Below are positions 18,832 to 30,721 of a DNA stretch of 59,390 nucleotides, piece by piece. Position 1 is the first letter of the stretch. Each line of letters opens with the position of its first letter. The translations under genes were made by a program, and so were the position numbers. Source of the stretch: a virus. The stretch is taken from the IMG/VR virus record IMGVR_UViG_3300042691_031687, positions 1 through 59,390 of that record. One strand, 5' to 3'. The notes under the pieces were generated by a model. It was not told where the DNA came from. It ran no database searches and was given only the letters and a program-made list of their open reading frames with translations.

Positions 18832-19260
18832 ATGACTTGGACTTATCAAGGACAAGTTGTAAATGAATTACCCGAGGACTGTGTTGGTTTTGTTTATTGC
18901 ATAACCAACACGACTTCGGGGCGCCAATACATTGGCAAAAAGTTAGCAAAATTTAGTAAAACGACCTACAAGACTGTAAAGTTAAAGAACGGCACTAAGA
19001 AGAAAAAGAAGATTCGAAGCAAAATCGACAGCGACTGGCAGGAGTATTACGGGTCCAGTCCTAATTTAACAGCAGATATCAACACCCTAGGCAAAGAAAA
19101 TTTCTCTCGCGAAATACTATACTATTGTAAATCCAAAGCAGAAACATCTTACATTGAGGCCCGAGAACAATTCGACCGCAAAGTATTAGAATCCGATGAA
19201 TACTATAACGGACATATTCAAGTCCGTGTCCATGGCTCTCACATTAAATCTAAAATTTAA
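18832..19260 (+). CDS. GIY-YIG-like putative endonuclease
   Basis: 142 aa. GFVYCITNTTSGRQYIGKK is a GIY-YIG-type first strand pair (VYC/YIG) and is followed by DWQEYYGSSPNL, a W-x-x-Y-x-G-S motif, and by EAREQFDRKVL containing a candidate catalytic Glu. The lysine-rich insert (KKKKKIRSK) may bind DNA. Small free-standing relatives of this type occur widely in T4-like phages, where they are homing or repair nucleases. It begins 3 nt after the H1-like gene and is the last gene before the 502-nt gene-free stretch. Confidence 0.75.
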   Translation: MTWTYQGQVVNELPEDCVGFVYCITNTTSGRQYIGKKLAKFSKTTYKTVKLKNGTKKKKKIRSKIDSDWQEYYGSSPNLTADINTLGKENFSREILYYCKSKAETSYIEAREQFDRKVLESDEYYNGHIQVRVHGSHIKSKI

Positions 19261-19729
19261 TTCAGTTTAAGCTCGCACAGGCTAATTTCGTGTGCCGAAC
19301 AGAAGAAACCTGGCCTTCGTGTGCGCAGGAATCCGAAGTCTTACCGCTGAAGTAAGCACTCAATCAGTATCCTTCACAGGACCACGATCGCAAAATGCCT
19401 GCGGTTTGATTGTTTGAATAGAGTTAAAAATAGGCCCAAGGATGGAGTAATAACAGAAACTCCACGCTTTGCAAATATGATAGTGTATATTTGCAAGCCG
19501 CCGTTGTTAAGACAGAATGAGTAGGTATCGGTCAACCGCCTACGTTAGCAGAAATGCTTGTAGTTCTAACACTATGTGACTGTGCTACTCAGATAATGCA
19601 GTTTTTTCTTAGCCCTTGCCTGGGCTAAGTGTGACCGATTAATCTAGATAATATTATTTCGTCTTCGACGATATAATGCTTCAAGTTAGAGCGTAAGCGA
19701 TAACGCAGAAGCAAGTGAGCGTCGCTCAC
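19261..19729 (+). ncRNA. Candidate structured non-coding RNA
   Basis: No open frame of convincing length occupies this stretch, yet it is unusually GC-balanced for the window and dense in complementary segments. Helices seen: 19340-19344/19352-19356 (CTTAC/GTAAG); 19361-19366/19407-19412 (CAATCA/TGATTG); 19443-19448/19459-19464 (TGGAGT/ACTCCA); 19469-19478/19487-19496 (10 bp, TTGCAAATAT/ATATTTGCAA); 19521-19525/19539-19543 (GTAGG/CCTAC); 19547-19550/19555-19558 closed by a GAAA tetraloop; 19608-19615/19622-19629 (8 bp, CTTAGCCC/GGGCTAAG); 19653-19663/19667-19677; 19714-19720/19724-19730. The loop of the GTAGG hairpin (ATCGGTCA, 19527-19534) is exactly complementary to TGACCGAT at 19632-19639, a possible pseudoknot. 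No tRNA, tmRNA or group I intron core was recognised. Strand is assumed from the flanking genes. Confidence 0.55.
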
Positions 19730-19762: not shown

Positions 19763-20476
19763 ATGAAATTCAATGATGTGTTAAGTGAAGCTCAGATTAA
19801 TGAACTGGGACTTCTTAAAAATATTAAAGGAGCTGTTCAGGGAGCAGTGTCTGGCTACAAAGCAAAGAAACTGCAAAGTGCAGGCAGTGCTCATTCTATG
19901 AGAATAGTTAACAACCTTAGGGCTGAATTTCAACAGTTAGTGGGCGGTGGAACAGAACCAACTTATCAAAACTTAATTGATTTTTTAGAAGATCAAGGTC
20001 TTGGTGATTTAGATACAATACCTAATCCTAGTGGTCAACAGCAACAACCTTCTCAGTCTCAGCGCATTGAACCTACAATGGAAGCAGTAGCTGGAGAACT
20101 ATCAGCTGTGCAAATTGACAACATTATTAAAGATGCAGTTAAAAAGAACTATTCGAGAATTGTAGCTGCACAAAAGGGCAGAACTGTTAGGCCCAGTGCT
20201 GAAAAACAGCCAGAAACTAATCCTCAACCTGATCCCGAACAGTCAGCACCACCGGCTAACGCAGGCAATCCTGTAACTGCACCACAACTTAAATCTCCCC
20301 CAGTTGCGGGCAACATTGAATCTATTAAAAAAGCCTATGCTATGTTGGATGCTGCTGAAAGAGCAGAATTAAAAAATCAATTGGAAATTATTGATGATCA
20401 GGATAGACTAGCATCAGGCACTAACGAATCTAAGACGCTGCAAGTGTACAGCAAATTTCTTGGAATTGACCTTTAA
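19763..20476 (+). CDS. Hypothetical virion/internal head protein
   Basis: 237 aa, not recognised by family. The N-terminus MKFNDVLSEA resembles the short capsid-targeting peptides of T4 internal proteins (hydrophobic-x-E with cleavage after Glu): here L7-S-E9. A Pro/Gln-rich low-complexity middle (PQPDPEQSAPP) separates two helical regions (LDAAERAELKNQLEIIDD near the end). A perfect late promoter lies upstream, so it is made late with the virion proteins. Its stop overlaps the convergent minus-strand gp26 extension by 4 nt. An internal or prohead core role is inferred from these facts only. Confidence 0.6.
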   Translation: MKFNDVLSEAQINELGLLKNIKGAVQGAVSGYKAKKLQSAGSAHSMRIVNNLRAEFQQLVGGGTEPTYQNLIDFLEDQGLGDLDTIPNPSGQQQQPSQSQRIEPTMEAVAGELSAVQIDNIIKDAVKKNYSRIVAAQKGRTVRPSAEKQPETNPQPDPEQSAPPANAGNPVTAPQLKSPPVAGNIESIKKAYAMLDAAERAELKNQLEIIDDQDRLASGTNESKTLQVYSKFLGIDL

Positions 20477-20703
20477 AAGAAAGGTAACTTGGTCTTATTT
20501 GTAGTTTCTAAGTTACTTTCGATCAACTTTCCAATCAACTCTCGGTCTAATGCGTCAGTTTCATATGCTTCAGATAAGGTCATACCTCCTCGCATAAACC
20601 AACACATCTTTATAAGTTCGTCTTTGGCGGCTCTTATCTCTTTTTCCATTTTTTCAATTAACTTGATAATCTCCTCAAGTGAAAGCGATAAGAGCCTTAT
20701 TCG
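20473..20703 (-). CDS. gp26 C-terminal extension reached by probable -1 frameshift
   Basis: In the -1 frame relative to gp26 an open stretch of 76 codons runs from the slippery site to a TAA at 20475-20473. It reads LEEIIKLIEKMEKEIRAAKD, then MCWFMRGG, EAYETDALDREL and ends NKTKLPFF. The only ATG (20649) lacks a well-placed ribosome binding site, while the frame is open back through the gp26 stop. The gp26 codons AAT TTT TTC contain the canonical -1 slippery heptamers A-AAT-TTT and T-TTT-TTC (20712-20703). The fusion would be 363 aa (287 + 76). This is the arrangement of tail assembly chaperones such as lambda gpG/gpGT. Independent translation of the 58-aa segment cannot be excluded. Confidence 0.7.
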   Translation of the reverse strand, partial: RIRLLSLSLEEIIKLIEKMEKEIRAAKDELIKMCWFMRGGMTLSEAYETDALDRELIGKLIESNLETTNKTKLPFF

Positions 20704-21563
20704 AAAAAATTTGCAGGATCAAATATAAGCGGAATTTCCATCTCTTCGGGAGACCCACTAGCTATCATTTCTGGTGTAGATTTGATTTTCATTGGCTTAA
20801 GACTGTTCTTCTGTCGAAGCATGTCTAAGTGAGATTTAATTGAATCAAAAACTATTTTATCGCAGTTCTCCATAAACTCTTGAATATTTTCTGAATCATC
20901 TGTAGTTCCGGCTGAGCTTTCTACTCTAAAAACACTGTTGTTGATAATTCCTACTGTTATATTTGTTAACTTTTTAAAACTATCTCTAAAAGTTTCAATC
21001 TTTTGTTCTTCAGTAAGAGTAGAATCACTTACTACATTTAATAATCGTTGAGTTTCAAAATTTTGAATACTAGTTTGACTCATAATTTTGTAATTTACAG
21101 GTTTAACAAACAGAGCTAGTTCAGTACCTACATTGATTCTTTCTTCCCAAGAAATTGATTCTTGCAATTGATCTAACAACAATCTTAGATCTAAAGAATA
21201 ACTTAAATCTTCTTCACCTATAGTAACAGTGGTATCCATTTTTTCTCCGTACGTTGCTAATCTTATGGCAATAAGAATAACATCCATATCTATACTAGGT
21301 GCTTCCCAAGCATTTTTAATAGCAGGAATACAATGCTCTATAACATCAACAATGGCCTGTCCATTCATTAGAGCATCTGGTGTTTTTAATAAAAGCTCAT
21401 CTTTAGCAGTCATAGAATATACAGCGTACTCTTCATTGGGAGAAATATCTAGGCATCCATCCGGCCAATATTTTCCATTGCTAGGCAGTCTAATATAAAT
21501 TTTTGGTTGCCTCATTAAACTGATTAGAGGGTTGTGTTTTTGTTTTGGTGCTTTGGAATCCAT
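20697..21563 (-). CDS. gp26: Baseplate hub assembly / tail assembly protein gp26
   Basis: 288 aa (T4 gp26 is 208 aa). The conserved block LPSNGKYWPDG with the following YSMTAKDELLLKTPDALMNG is the hallmark of the T4 gp26 baseplate family and of related tail assembly proteins. A helical middle (IDMDVILIAIRLATYGE) and an acidic C-terminus follow. It is divergent from the tape measure gene. A perfect TATAAATA on the minus strand (21611-21604) lies 40 nt before its ATG. The 3' end carries a slippery sequence that opens into the extension at 20473-20703. Confidence 0.88.
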   Translation of the reverse strand: MDSKAPKQKHNPLISLMRQPKIYIRLPSNGKYWPDGCLDISPNEEYAVYSMTAKDELLLKTPDALMNGQAIVDVIEHCIPAIKNAWEAPSIDMDVILIAIRLATYGEKMDTTVTIGEEDLSYSLDLRLLLDQLQESISWEERINVGTELALFVKPVNYKIMSQTSIQNFETQRLLNVVSDSTLTEEQKIETFRDSFKKLTNITVGIINNSVFRVESSAGTTDDSENIQEFMENCDKIVFDSIKSHLDMLRQKNSLKPMKIKSTPEMIASGSPEEMEIPLIFDPANFFE

Positions 21564-21636: not shown

Positions 21637-23700
21637 ATGGCAATGGACACGGCAGTAATGGAACAAATTTTGAGCAATATGCTCAAATCGCAGCAACAGC
21701 AAGGCAAAGAACAGGCTGCGGCGTTTGCCAGGCTGGCCAAAGCTGCTGGTCTTGATCCTAAAATTATTGCAAACGCAGAATCTAAATTAAAAAATCTAGG
21801 TGATGCTGCTGAAGAAACTGCAAAGTCTACGGGAAAAATGAATAAGGCTGGCAATATAGCCGGTGCTGCTCTTGCCGATTTAGCTAGCGGTGTTATGAGC
21901 ACTGCCGGCAACTTGATTAATTTTGGCACATCGGCAATGATGGGAACTGCCAAAGTTAGTGATTTTTTTGCAGCATTTAAAGATCTTCCTATTATAGGAT
22001 CAGTAGCAGGATTATTTTCTTCTTTGATGAAAGTTCAAGAAGCAGCGTTAGAATCTTTTAGTTCTCTTAGTCAAAATGGTATAGATTTAGGTGGTAGCTT
22101 AACAAAGTTAAGATTTGATGCGTTGTCCATGGGATTGACATTGGAAGAAATGACAAAAGTCTTAAAAGACAATTCTGAGACTTTGGTCCAAATGGGAGGT
22201 TCAGTATCCGCAGGAGCAAGAAATTTTAGAGAAATTAGTAAGGCTATGGGTTCTAGCGGACTTCGTCAAGAATTATTAAATTTAGGATTTACATTTGAAG
22301 AAACTAATCAATTAGTAGGACAATATGCTAGATCAGTTGGTGGATTAACTAAAGATCAGTTAAAAGATTATAGAAGCGTAGCTGTTGCGGCAGCTGCATA
22401 CGGAAAAGAATTAGATTTTCTTGCTAGACTAACGGGCGAAAGTAGAGAAGCTACGCAGAAAAAATTAGAAGAAGAAGCAATGGAAGCAAACTGGCAAGCA
22501 TTTTTGGCTGGCAAAGATGAAGAGACTCGCAAAAAACTTAATGATGGTTTGCAAAAATCATTGGCAGGAGCCGGAAAAGCTGGCGGTGATATTTTTAAAG
22601 CTGCTGCTCAAGGCATTGCAGTACAAACTGAAGGCGGTCAAGTAACAACTGCCTTAATGGGAGAAATGTCTGAAACTATTAGAAAGGCTGCATTAGATGC
22701 AAATAATAGTTCAATAAGTTCTCAGAAATTTTTAGGTAACAGCACTAGATTTTTAGCAACGATACAAAGTCAATCAGCCAAAGGCTACAAAGACAATGAC
22801 AGAGTGTTTCAAGCATTGGCATTAAGTGGAGATCCGTTAGCAGCACAAATGGGTATTCATGCAACAAATTACAAAACACTAAGCAATGCTCAAGGAAATT
22901 TGTCTATGAGTATTGAAGAAAATGTTAGAAGATTAGAAAAAGAAAGAAAAGACGCCGAAGAGAAAGCTAAAAAAGCAGACGCCGAAGCTGCTGCAATGCG
23001 ACAAATGCAAGAAGCAATTAAAAATTTAGGAATGACATTATGGTCAGCGTTTAGCCCGTTGTTTCCTATAATGACAGATTTTGTTATGAATTCTGGTCCT
23101 CTAATAAGAAAGTTTGCAGAAACTTTGGGAACTGCAATTAGATGGTTTTCCGAAAAAGTAATTAGCGAACCTGGCAGGCAGGAAATTTTAAACAAAATTG
23201 CCGAATTCTTAAAAGATCTATTTGGGAAAATATTCGATATGATTAAACCTAGCCCCGCTTCAGGGTCAAATGTTGCACTTTCTGTAGCTGGGGGTGCTGC
23301 TATGGGAGCTGGATTAGGGTCAGTTGTTCCGGGTATTGGTACAGCGTTTGGCGCAGTTACCGGTGCTATTGCAGGCTTAACTGTTGCATTGGGTGAATGG
23401 GCATATGAGGCTATGTCCAAGAGTGGCGGGAGATCTAAAGGTTCTTGGGGAACAGTAGGCTCAGCATTTGAAAATTTTGGATCAGGTACACCAATTGTAG
23501 CACACGGTACAGAAGGCGTGTTTACACCGGATCAAATTAATCAATTGATGCAATCGGGTACTTCAAATGCACTGCAAGGCCTCGTAAGTCAGTTAAATAA
23601 CACACAAGCAGAGATGGTTCGCGTGTTGCGTGAAGTAGCAGACTACAGTAGACGAAATGTAGAAGCAACTAATTCACTAAGTGGAAATGCATTTGCTTAA
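21637..23700 (+). CDS. gp29: Tape measure / baseplate hub tail length protein (gp29-like)
   Basis: 687 aa. Helical and coiled-coil-prone throughout, with a charged coil at about residues 425-465 (RRLEKERKDAEEKAKKADAE) and a Gly/Ala hydrophobic segment at about 555-590 (GGAAMGAGLGSVVPGIG) like the membrane-active segments of tape measure proteins. The C-terminus has the VAHGTEGVFTPDQINQL motif often found at the end of phage tape measures. T4 gp29 (590 aa) sets tail length; this one is slightly longer. It is adjacent to gp26 and directly upstream of the portal gene. The ATG is preceded by GGGAAAATAAC. Confidence 0.8.
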   Translation: MAMDTAVMEQILSNMLKSQQQQGKEQAAAFARLAKAAGLDPKIIANAESKLKNLGDAAEETAKSTGKMNKAGNIAGAALADLASGVMSTAGNLINFGTSAMMGTAKVSDFFAAFKDLPIIGSVAGLFSSLMKVQEAALESFSSLSQNGIDLGGSLTKLRFDALSMGLTLEEMTKVLKDNSETLVQMGGSVSAGARNFREISKAMGSSGLRQELLNLGFTFEETNQLVGQYARSVGGLTKDQLKDYRSVAVAAAAYGKELDFLARLTGESREATQKKLEEEAMEANWQAFLAGKDEETRKKLNDGLQKSLAGAGKAGGDIFKAAAQGIAVQTEGGQVTTALMGEMSETIRKAALDANNSSISSQKFLGNSTRFLATIQSQSAKGYKDNDRVFQALALSGDPLAAQMGIHATNYKTLSNAQGNLSMSIEENVRRLEKERKDAEEKAKKADAEAAAMRQMQEAIKNLGMTLWSAFSPLFPIMTDFVMNSGPLIRKFAETLGTAIRWFSEKVISEPGRQEILNKIAEFLKDLFGKIFDMIKPSPASGSNVALSVAGGAAMGAGLGSVVPGIGTAFGAVTGAIAGLTVALGEWAYEAMSKSGGRSKGSWGTVGSAFENFGSGTPIVAHGTEGVFTPDQINQLMQSGTSNALQGLVSQLNNTQAEMVRVLREVADYSRRNVEATNSLSGNAFA

Positions 23701-23714
23701 ATTTGGAGTTATTT

Positions 23715-25424
23715 GTGGCCTGGAAAAGATTTTTTACACCCGTTGATACATCTGGACAAAAGAGTCCTGTTCCTATGGGGAACAGACCTGGCATGTCTAG
23801 ATCTAATTATAGCAGTTATCTGCCTGACGTATATTCTGGCCATCCTAACAGATTAGAGCGTTATGGTCAGTATGATTCCATGGATACTGACAGTGAAGTC
23901 AATGCTGCATTTGATATTCTTGCAGAATTTTGCACACAACAAAATGATGAAAATGGTACACCATTTCAGATCTTTTTTAAGGATCAAGCCACATCTACTG
24001 AAGTTAAAATCATTAAAAAGTATCTACAACAATGGACCAAGTCAAATAAATTTCACACTAGGATTTTTAAAATTGTAAGAAACTGTTTCAAATATGGTGA
24101 TGTATTCTTTGTAAGAGATCCAGAAACTCAAAAATGGTTATACATCGACCCAGCCAAGGTAGATAAAATTATTGTAAACGAAAGCGAAGGCAAAAAGCCC
24201 GAGCAATATGTTATTCGAGATTTAAATGTTAATCTTCAAAATTTAACAGTTACACAGATCAATCCTACTAACACAAATATTACATCCGGCGGTACTGCTT
24301 ATATCAACAGTGGCGCACAACAGCGCGGTATGGCTGGTGCAGTTCCTAACAATGCCAACAGCAGTAGATTTCAACAAAATGTAGATCAACATGCAATTGA
24401 TGCTACTCATGTAATTCACATCAGCATGAGTGAAGGTATAGACAATAATTTTCCTTTTGGCAACAGCTTGATGGAAACTATTTTCAAAGTTTATAAACAA
24501 AAAGAATTACTCGAAGACGCTATTATTATCTATCGCGTACAACGTGCTCCAGAACGTCGTGTATTTTACATTGACGTAGGTAACATGCCAAGTCATTTGG
24601 CTATGGGATTTGTTGAGCGTGTTAAAAACGAAATTAATCAACGACGCATTCCTAGCAGTATGGGCGGTGGACAAAACGTTATTGATGCTGCATACAATCC
24701 GTTAAGTATTAACGAAGACTATTTCTTTCCACAAACTGCTGAAGGTCGTGGATCAAAAGTTGAAATTCTTCCTGGCGGTACAAACCTAGGAGAAATTGAT
24801 GATCTTAGATATTTTACTAATAAGTTGTTTAGGGCTTTACGCATACCTAGCTCTTATCTTCCGACCGGCGCTGACGACGGAGGATCTAGCTTCAATGATG
24901 GTCGAGTTGGAACAGCATACATTCAAGAATTGCGATTCAACAAATACTGCGAACGACTACAAAGTTTGATGCACGAACAGTTTGATACTGAATTCAAATT
25001 ATATCTGCATAACAAAGGTATTAATGTAGACAACAATCTGTTTGATCTTAAATTTAATCCACCACAAAACTTTGCTGCTTATCGTCAAGCAGAAATGGAT
25101 ACAGCACGAGTAGGTACATTTACTACTATGGTAGCTGTGCCTTTTGTTAGTAAGCGATTTGCTATGAAGCGATTCTTAGGAATGACTACAGAAGAAATTG
25201 CAGAAAATGAAAAAATGTGGAGAGAAGAAAATGTCGACCAGGGAACTAATTTGAGCGCCAGCGCAGAACTACGCAGTGCAGGCATTACTGCTACTGGTAT
25301 AACTGGAGACATTGACAGCTTAGGTAATCAAACAACACCTCCTGAAGATTTAGAAGATGATGAAGCAGGATTAGATGCAGGTATGCCTAGTGCCACTCCT
25401 GCTGAGACTCCTTCTCCTATGTAA
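23715..25424 (+). CDS. gp20: Portal protein gp20
   Basis: 569 aa from the GTG at 23715 (T4 gp20 is 524 aa). The GTG start is chosen because TTGGAG sits 7 nt upstream; the in-frame TTG at 23703 lies within that ribosome binding site. The family block PFGNSLMETIFKVYKQKELL, then IIYRVQRAPERRVFYIDVGN is clear, as is NEDYFFPQTAEGRGS. It forms the dodecameric vertex through which DNA is packaged. The tail is acidic and Pro-rich. It follows the tape measure by 14 nt and precedes the prohead core genes. Confidence 0.95.
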   Translation: MAWKRFFTPVDTSGQKSPVPMGNRPGMSRSNYSSYLPDVYSGHPNRLERYGQYDSMDTDSEVNAAFDILAEFCTQQNDENGTPFQIFFKDQATSTEVKIIKKYLQQWTKSNKFHTRIFKIVRNCFKYGDVFFVRDPETQKWLYIDPAKVDKIIVNESEGKKPEQYVIRDLNVNLQNLTVTQINPTNTNITSGGTAYINSGAQQRGMAGAVPNNANSSRFQQNVDQHAIDATHVIHISMSEGIDNNFPFGNSLMETIFKVYKQKELLEDAIIIYRVQRAPERRVFYIDVGNMPSHLAMGFVERVKNEINQRRIPSSMGGGQNVIDAAYNPLSINEDYFFPQTAEGRGSKVEILPGGTNLGEIDDLRYFTNKLFRALRIPSSYLPTGADDGGSSFNDGRVGTAYIQELRFNKYCERLQSLMHEQFDTEFKLYLHNKGINVDNNLFDLKFNPPQNFAAYRQAEMDTARVGTFTTMVAVPFVSKRFAMKRFLGMTTEEIAENEKMWREENVDQGTNLSASAELRSAGITATGITGDIDSLGNQTTPPEDLEDDEAGLDAGMPSATPAETPSPM

Positions 25425-29906: not shown

Positions 29907-29914
29907 GTTAAATA
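29907..29914 (+). promoter_or_regulatory. Late promoter box GTTAAATA
   Basis: GTTAAATAC directly after the gp23 terminator and 69 nt before the ATG at 29984; it restarts late transcription into the decoration genes. Confidence 0.5.
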
Positions 29915-29983
29915 CTATTCTAGATTATTATGCGGCACCCACCGCGTAGGGCCTAGAACGCTCATAAATCAAAGGAGAAACAA

Positions 29984-30721
29984 ATGGGACGTCCAATTAA
30001 TAAGAAATTTTTCGGTAATACAAACAGTCCGTACGATGACGGACAAACTGGCGGCGCAACTGGCGTCGGCGGAGAAGGTATTGCAACTATTGTACCTTTA
30101 TCAACCACAACAAGTTATAGCACATCAACTACAGTAACATGGCAAGCTGGCGTTCCTGCAATTCCAGGCGGAACTCGTGCGTCGGGTACTGTAATAGTTA
30201 GTGCTACTGGTGTAGCAACTGGTTTGAATATTTTAGTTGCAGGTAGTGGTTATACATCTACTGCAACGTCATTAACATTTACACCTAATCCGACTACTAC
30301 TGGTACATTTGCAATTAGCTTAACTACTGGTCGTCAAAATGCTCTAAACTTTACAGCATGGGTTCCTACTGCAAGCAACGGCACAGTTAATTCTGGTGGC
30401 AGTGCAGTAATTGGTGACATTGTTAAGCAACAAGGAACAAGTCGTTACTATGTTAAGACTGCTCAAGGTTACGGTGTATGTAAACTAGTAGCTGCTGCTG
30501 CTTCTATTGGTACTATGGTATTAATCGCATCTGACGCAAACGGCAATACATACTATGTAACTCGTTTGGCATCTAAGAAGGCTCGATTGACTAGATTGAC
30601 TCAAAACGGAGTAAATGCCTGGGTCTATGCAACAAACGATTTGGCAAAATGGACATTTGGTTCTGCCAACGGTACTGACAAGTTCTTAGTAACAACTACA
30701 GTTAGTATTTCCAACATTTAA
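29984..30721 (+). CDS. Virion structural protein, family not named
   Basis: 245 aa. The N-terminus MGRPINKKFFGN is a conserved start of small virion proteins that follow the capsid gene in T4-like phages of marine origin. The rest is Gly/Thr/Ser-rich beta sequence, ending with a more basic segment YYVTRLASKKARLTRL. An AAAGGAG precedes the ATG. It is flanked by terminators on both sides, so it is a single-gene unit. A head decoration or head fiber is possible; no direct evidence. Confidence 0.7.
   Translation: MGRPINKKFFGNTNSPYDDGQTGGATGVGGEGIATIVPLSTTTSYSTSTTVTWQAGVPAIPGGTRASGTVIVSATGVATGLNILVAGSGYTSTATSLTFTPNPTTTGTFAISLTTGRQNALNFTAWVPTASNGTVNSGGSAVIGDIVKQQGTSRYYVKTAQGYGVCKLVAAAASIGTMVLIASDANGNTYYVTRLASKKARLTRLTQNGVNAWVYATNDLAKWTFGSANGTDKFLVTTTVSISNI

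Follow-up and report, generated by a model that had tools for sequence, protein, structure and literature searches.

The gp26-like gene of a viral DNA sequence of 59,390 nucleotides (hereafter the window, i.e. the whole stretch of DNA that was analyzed) very probably gives rise to two proteins, a short (TAC-N) and a long (TAC-NC) tail-assembly chaperone, by programmed −1 ribosomal frameshifting close to its stop codon. A frameshift of this tail-chaperone type had originally been predicted from the letters of the window alone, and it is strongly supported here, since every relative with a known gene end keeps both a slippery heptamer and an open −1 frame and since the gene is homologous to T4 genes 26 and 51. 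The case is a clear, unannotated example of a known phage strategy rather than something new. Our analysis adds three points: practically all jumbo T4-like phages have the site, the records that we examined do not annotate it, and its presence varies together with gene copy number. In the source record (59,390 bases), we found T4-like genes for the portal, the prohead protease, the major head protein and the sheath stabilizer together with SbcC/SbcD and late sigma genes, and jumbo T4-like phages are the nearest named relatives of the window, judged by the gp26-like gene. The features discussed below are listed in Table 1.

Table 1. Location of the features discussed in the text (window coordinates).
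Feature	Position	Strand	Remark
gp26-like putative tail-assembly chaperone, short form (TAC-N), 288 aa	21563-20697	minus	PF12322 T4_baseplate
Slippery heptamer T TTT TTC	20709-20703	minus	gp26 frame; putative −1 frameshift site
Overlapping heptamer A AAT TTT	20712-20706	minus	gp26 frame; not conserved, probably incidental
0-frame stop of short form	20697-20699	minus	one codon past heptamer T TTT TTC
−1 frame extension, 76 codons + stop	20473-20703	minus	predicted C-terminal domain of long form (TAC-NC)
Downstream region for potential stimulatory RNA structure	20638-20701	minus	enriched in family, undetectable in window
Ala/Gly-rich gene, 687 aa, plausible tape measure	21637-23700	plus	divergent from chaperone gene, adjoins portal
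Portal gene	23703-25424	plus	phrog_213, E = 1e-114
RF01718 Polynucleobacter-1 RNA (Rfam)	19270-19415	plus	80 bits, cut-off 37
RF02980 freshwater-2 cis-regulatory RNA (Rfam)	29911-29986	plus	just upstream of gene 29984-30721
Stand-alone SegE-type GIY-YIG endonuclease	18832-19260	plus	PF19835, E = 1e-33

The gp26-like ORF ends on the minus strand in GCA AAT TTT TTC GAA TAA, and both of the overlapping heptamers described in the original prediction are present there in the gp26 frame. After a slip, the −1 frame reads FF-RIRLLSLSLEEIIKLIEKMEKEIRAAKDELIKMCWFMRGGMTLSEAYETDALDRELIGKLIESNLETTNKTKLPFF, i.e. FF-RIRLLSLSLEE...TKLPFF; the 76-codon open frame ending in KLPFF was thus recovered as described, with its stop at positions 20475-20473. 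This stop overlaps that of a convergent gene (19763-20476), which means that the whole interval is used. We also found the −1 frame to be devoid of a properly placed start, as had been claimed, its first start codon being an ATG at position 20649, about 20 codons downstream, with no obvious ribosome-binding site. The long form would count 287 + 76 = 363 residues with the junction NFF-RIR, and the product would be identical for a slip at either heptamer. In-phase T TTT TTY occurs only twice among the 40 genes of the window (16,906 codons), and among these genes the gp26-like gene alone combines a slippery heptamer at a 3′ overlap with a long −1 extension that is not simply the neighbouring gene.

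In the mechanism that we propose, the majority of ribosomes would terminate at TAA and yield the 288-aa gp26-like short chaperone, whereas in a minority of them the tRNA-Phe in both sites on U UUU UUC would slip back one base and re-pair on UUU UUU. Ribosomes that had slipped would read on through R-I-R-L-L and produce the 363-aa long form, which would bear an extra all-helical domain. If lambda gpG/gpGT and T4 gp26/gp51 serve as the model, both forms would act in baseplate hub and tail tube assembly, the short one coating the tape measure and the long one anchoring to it through its additional domain, before leaving. Both the occurrence and the efficiency of slippage are inferred here.

Comparison across relatives takes the site well beyond chance. 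Loci were retrieved from viral contigs using the short ORF (52 loci) or the −1 ORF (29 loci) as the query, named phages were added, and removal of duplicates left 62 non-redundant sequences, Syn9 included. In-phase T TTT TTY followed by an open −1 frame was found at every fetched locus with a complete 3′ end, the exception, L052, being a match that covers residues 11-216 only and diverges before the gene end. All 62 non-redundant relatives have T TTT TTY, 60 as T TTT TTC and two (XacN1 and RAS14) as T TTT TTT, down to about 25% identity (Atu_ph07, PA5oct, 121Q, CBB, K64-1 and cyanophage Syn9). The hosts of phages with the site comprise Agrobacterium, Sinorhizobium, Pseudomonas, enterobacteria, Vibrio, Xanthomonas, Stenotrophomonas, Salicola and Synechococcus.

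Conservation extends to positions at which the encoded protein varies. The codon preceding FF specifies eight different amino acids (N, S, D, T, H, R, Y and A) in the 62 sequences, with T as its third base every time. Across the codon alignment, the first of the two Phe codons is TTT in 62/62 and the second TTC in 60/62, compared to a share of 28-85% for the commonest codon at every other conserved column (61% and 82% at the other conserved Phe columns); the relatives are not independent of each other, and these other columns, for which relatedness is equal, act as the control for the Phe codons. AAT is the codon before FF in 32 of the 62 relatives, and A AAT TTT is thus present in at most that number and missing from many of those in which T TTT TTC is kept. 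The functional site is therefore T TTT TTC; only this member of the predicted pair of heptamers holds as a conserved element, and A AAT TTT was rejected.

A conserved homopolymer run could also point to RNA polymerase, which would then generate the long form by transcriptional slippage on the run of six T instead of the ribosome doing so by frameshifting. Such slippage at T/A runs is known in some bacteria and phages, but six T make a short run for such slippage in bacteria, almost no lineage has lengthened the run, and the seventh base is C in 60 of 62 sequences. The phase T TTT TTY and the structure-enriched region located just downstream fit ribosomal slippage, and we consider a transcriptional origin of the long form very improbable.

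The −1 frame itself behaves as a coding sequence. Its dN/dS ranges from 0.03 to 0.34 (Nei-Gojobori, unsaturated pairs), which indicates purifying selection, and it is open in all relatives over 72-83 residues in the jumbo set, and 67 in Syn9, counted from FF. The −1 product nearly always starts with FFR directly after the heptamer. The 0-frame tail past FF varies from 1 to 11 codons across relatives and is unconserved, whereas the −1 sequence is kept. The −1 coding extension is thus conserved, runs without interruption and is under purifying selection, yet has no conserved start of its own.

This last observation bears directly on the possibility that the −1 ORF is a separate small gene, translated from its own start by coupling or internal initiation. 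The records of 121Q, BF, Kaldavass, Phosso and others do annotate a separate CDS beginning near the gp26 stop, that of Syn9 annotates an internal start (47-aa gp51), and the ATG at 20649 would be available in frame in the window. However, the −1 frame of PA5oct contains no ATG, GTG or TTG in all of its 75 codons, and L029, L014 and L017 have no start before codon 38 of 78, a codon that lies inside a conserved W(Y/H)MRGG motif, while the protein is kept from the slippery site on. A separate gene would also leave the strict third-base conservation of T TTT TTC unexplained. We rejected a separate start since no start codon is conserved among relatives, and such a gene now seems hardly credible. 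Relatives with a separately started small gene and no slippery site would have spoken against frameshifting; none of the sets of frameshift relatives has a conserved start. None of the annotated relatives examined joins the two frames, the −1 part appearing as a truncated “hypothetical protein”, as a mis-started “gp51” or not at all. The slip site thus provides the means to correct chaperone gene models across jumbo T4-like phages and cyanophages.

The short ORF belongs to PF12322 (E = 1.5e-6; 28.5 bits versus a curated cut-off of 24.5), a family matched by 40/40 aligned sequences and by both T4 gp26 (208 aa) and T4 gp51 (249 aa). It also matches phrog_150 “baseplate hub” (E = 1.2e-9), and phrog_634 “baseplate hub assembly catalyst” also matches the C-terminal part of T4 gp51. 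The AlphaFold2 model of the short form (pLDDT 85.5) has a TM-score of 0.83 to the predicted model of a T4-like baseplate hub assembly protein, and the −1 extension is confidently modelled as an all-helical domain (pLDDT 91.8). A fold search of the PDB with both domains gave no significant match, and a Pfam/PHROGs search with the −1 domain returned no named family, only phrog_18291 (function unknown) for eight relatives. The chaperone model also has fold matches in BFVD (A0A191ZCG4, A0A0K2QR08, A0A1L7N169, A0A514TUY8 and similar models; TM about 0.5 by query), which correspond to uncharacterised proteins of 500-550 aa from other jumbo phages, namely Special G of Erwinia, RSF1 and RP12 of Ralstonia, and PS1 of Aeromonas; from these models, the proteins could possibly be the chaperones of those phages.

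Family names of this kind raise the question of whether the long form, although produced by a genuine frameshift, plays another role, e.g. as a structural component of the hub rather than an assembly chaperone. Databases call the family “baseplate hub”, and gp26 was located in the hub by some T4 genetics, according to a review in which gp26 and gp51 are nevertheless given as chaperones of hub assembly (PMC3004832). Besides, a short/long pair in which the long form has a C-terminal extension fits the pattern of tail-assembly chaperones, whose short form coats the tape measure and whose long form contacts it through its extra domain (PMC12846349). We therefore favor the chaperone role, which we infer from homology and arrangement, and regard a structural role as unlikely.

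Potential stimulatory elements vary among the relatives. Compared to dinucleotide shuffles, the 60 nt past the site have a family mean fold z of −1.75; upstream of the site, as well as 30 nt further downstream, z is about 0. Cyanophage-like loci reach z of −1.4 to −1.6 after the site. For the 66 nt that follow the site in the window, predicted folding is no more stable than in shuffles (z = −0.08). The small ATAAG/CTTAT hairpin that the original prediction placed right after the site is not the minimum-energy fold, no consensus fold emerges after the site in the window's own clade, and this hairpin was discarded as a stimulator; a related subclade has only a weak 5-pair consensus with two compensated pairs. 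Long stable hairpins (−20 kcal/mol) occur within the first 60 nt after the heptamer in L029, L023 and relatives, and none occurs in the window. A Shine-Dalgarno-like tetramer lies upstream of the site in 100% of cyanophage-like loci, where it is probably forced by conserved Glu-Gly codons; no such element was found in the window, and its frequency in the window's clade is 2% versus a background of 6%. An upstream stimulator of this type was likewise set aside for this clade. The contrast in hairpins suggests that stimulators are lineage-specific, with long hairpins in some relatives and none in the window. Nearness of the stop codon may contribute to slippage.

Several known systems share part of this organization. 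In lambda, the heptamer of gpG/gpGT is G GGA AAG; the short form covers the tape measure, which is contacted by the extra domain of the long form. As in lambda (Xu, Hendrix and Duda), the slip in the −1 direction would take place near the end of the short chaperone gene to produce the long form, and the gene adjoins one of tape-measure type; the tape-measure-like gene of the window is divergent, however, and the likeness drawn here is one of arrangement. The chaperone genes of Vandenendeviridae and Andersonviridae (phage Adele, PMC12846349) likewise have a poly-T −1 site that is conserved and a −1 extension that runs without interruption, for which the same comparative argument was made, but their motif is GTTTTT and they belong to other phage families.

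Cyanophages (Kyanoviridae) share the site itself. Gene 26 of Syn9 ends in GCT TCT TTT TTC GGG TAG, and 78/78 distinct cyanophage-like loci have the identical T TTT TTC one codon ahead of the stop and an open −1 frame. The cyanophage extension differs from that of the window in being shorter and diverged in sequence and in the upstream tetramer mentioned above; in addition, the cyanophage chaperone gene lies on the same strand as the large gene that follows, whereas the neighbour in the window is divergent. A profile built from the −1 product of cyanophages matches the C terminus of T4 gp51 (E = 6e-8, residues 206-247), so that gp51 carries the extra domain found in the cyanophage −1 frame. When profiles are matched directly, the jumbo-phage −1 product resembles the cyanophage and T4 C termini only weakly (E about 0.002, probability 15%), and its equivalence to them is suggested mainly by position, junction and predicted helices. 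The “gp51” annotated in Syn9 (L090 7248-7391; internal start) corresponds to an internal fragment of the gp26 −1 extension, and cyanophage annotations of “gp51” may be mis-started throughout.

T4 shares with the window the PF12322 membership of gp26 (short) and gp51 (long) and the divergence of gene 26 from the tape-measure operon, but its long form comes from a second gene, and gene 26 lacks both the heptamer and a −1 extension of the kind seen in the window. The 3′ end of T4 gene 26, GAG TTC TTT GAG TTA CTA TAA, keeps the FF motif (EFFELL) but not the heptamer; its −1 frame ends 7 nt ahead of the stop codon, beyond which lies gene 25. No slippery site and no −1 extension were found in RB43. 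T4-like tail-assembly chaperones were reportedly identified by Vladimirov, Gautam and Davidson in 2022 (Virology 566:9-15), who, to go by the title, proposed an alternative to frameshifting.

Should the long form come from frameshifting, one PF12322 gene would be needed with the site and two without it. A single PF12322 match was found over the whole record in Phosso, Atu_ph07, PA5oct, 121Q, Syn9, K64-1, BF, Vibrio 2.275, XacN1, RAS14, Munch, CBB, GAP32, XaC1 and Kaldavass. SCTP-2, which has the site, gave no PF12322 match, its gene being too diverged to score, and was found by direct similarity. The record of the window, a fragment, contains one PF12322 gene, and hence not the two genes of the T4 type. 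The site is absent only from T4, RB43 and T4-like contigs, such as that of L189; these carry two PF12322 genes, i.e. a second full gene in place of the site, as frameshifting predicts. It is reasonably likely that frameshifting on U UUU UUC was the ancestral route to the chaperone pair in the T4-like supergroup, and that the T4 lineage duplicated the gene and fixed the −1 extension in frame as gp51, in which case the FF of gene 26 would be the fossil of a slip site. If true, a replacement of recoding by gene duplication could be traced between the T4 lineage on the one hand and jumbo T4-like phages and cyanophages on the other. One slipping gene and two separate genes represent two answers to one stoichiometry problem within a single phage supergroup, and comparing them is a straightforward way to learn how closely the short:long ratio has to be kept for tail assembly.

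The divergent position of the neighbouring 687-aa gene, on the other strand from the gp26 pair, was confirmed, and its homologues vary in length and, in most relatives, likewise point away from the chaperone gene. Its predicted identity as the tape measure is plausible on the basis of composition and synteny; none of the databases used gave it a name, and it has no match to T4 gp29. Further along, the gene preceded by the RF02980 motif encodes 245 aa, has no PHROG match and follows the major head protein. The RF01718 match sits between the SegE-like GIY-YIG endonuclease gene, likely coding for a homing endonuclease, and the gene convergent with the chaperone.
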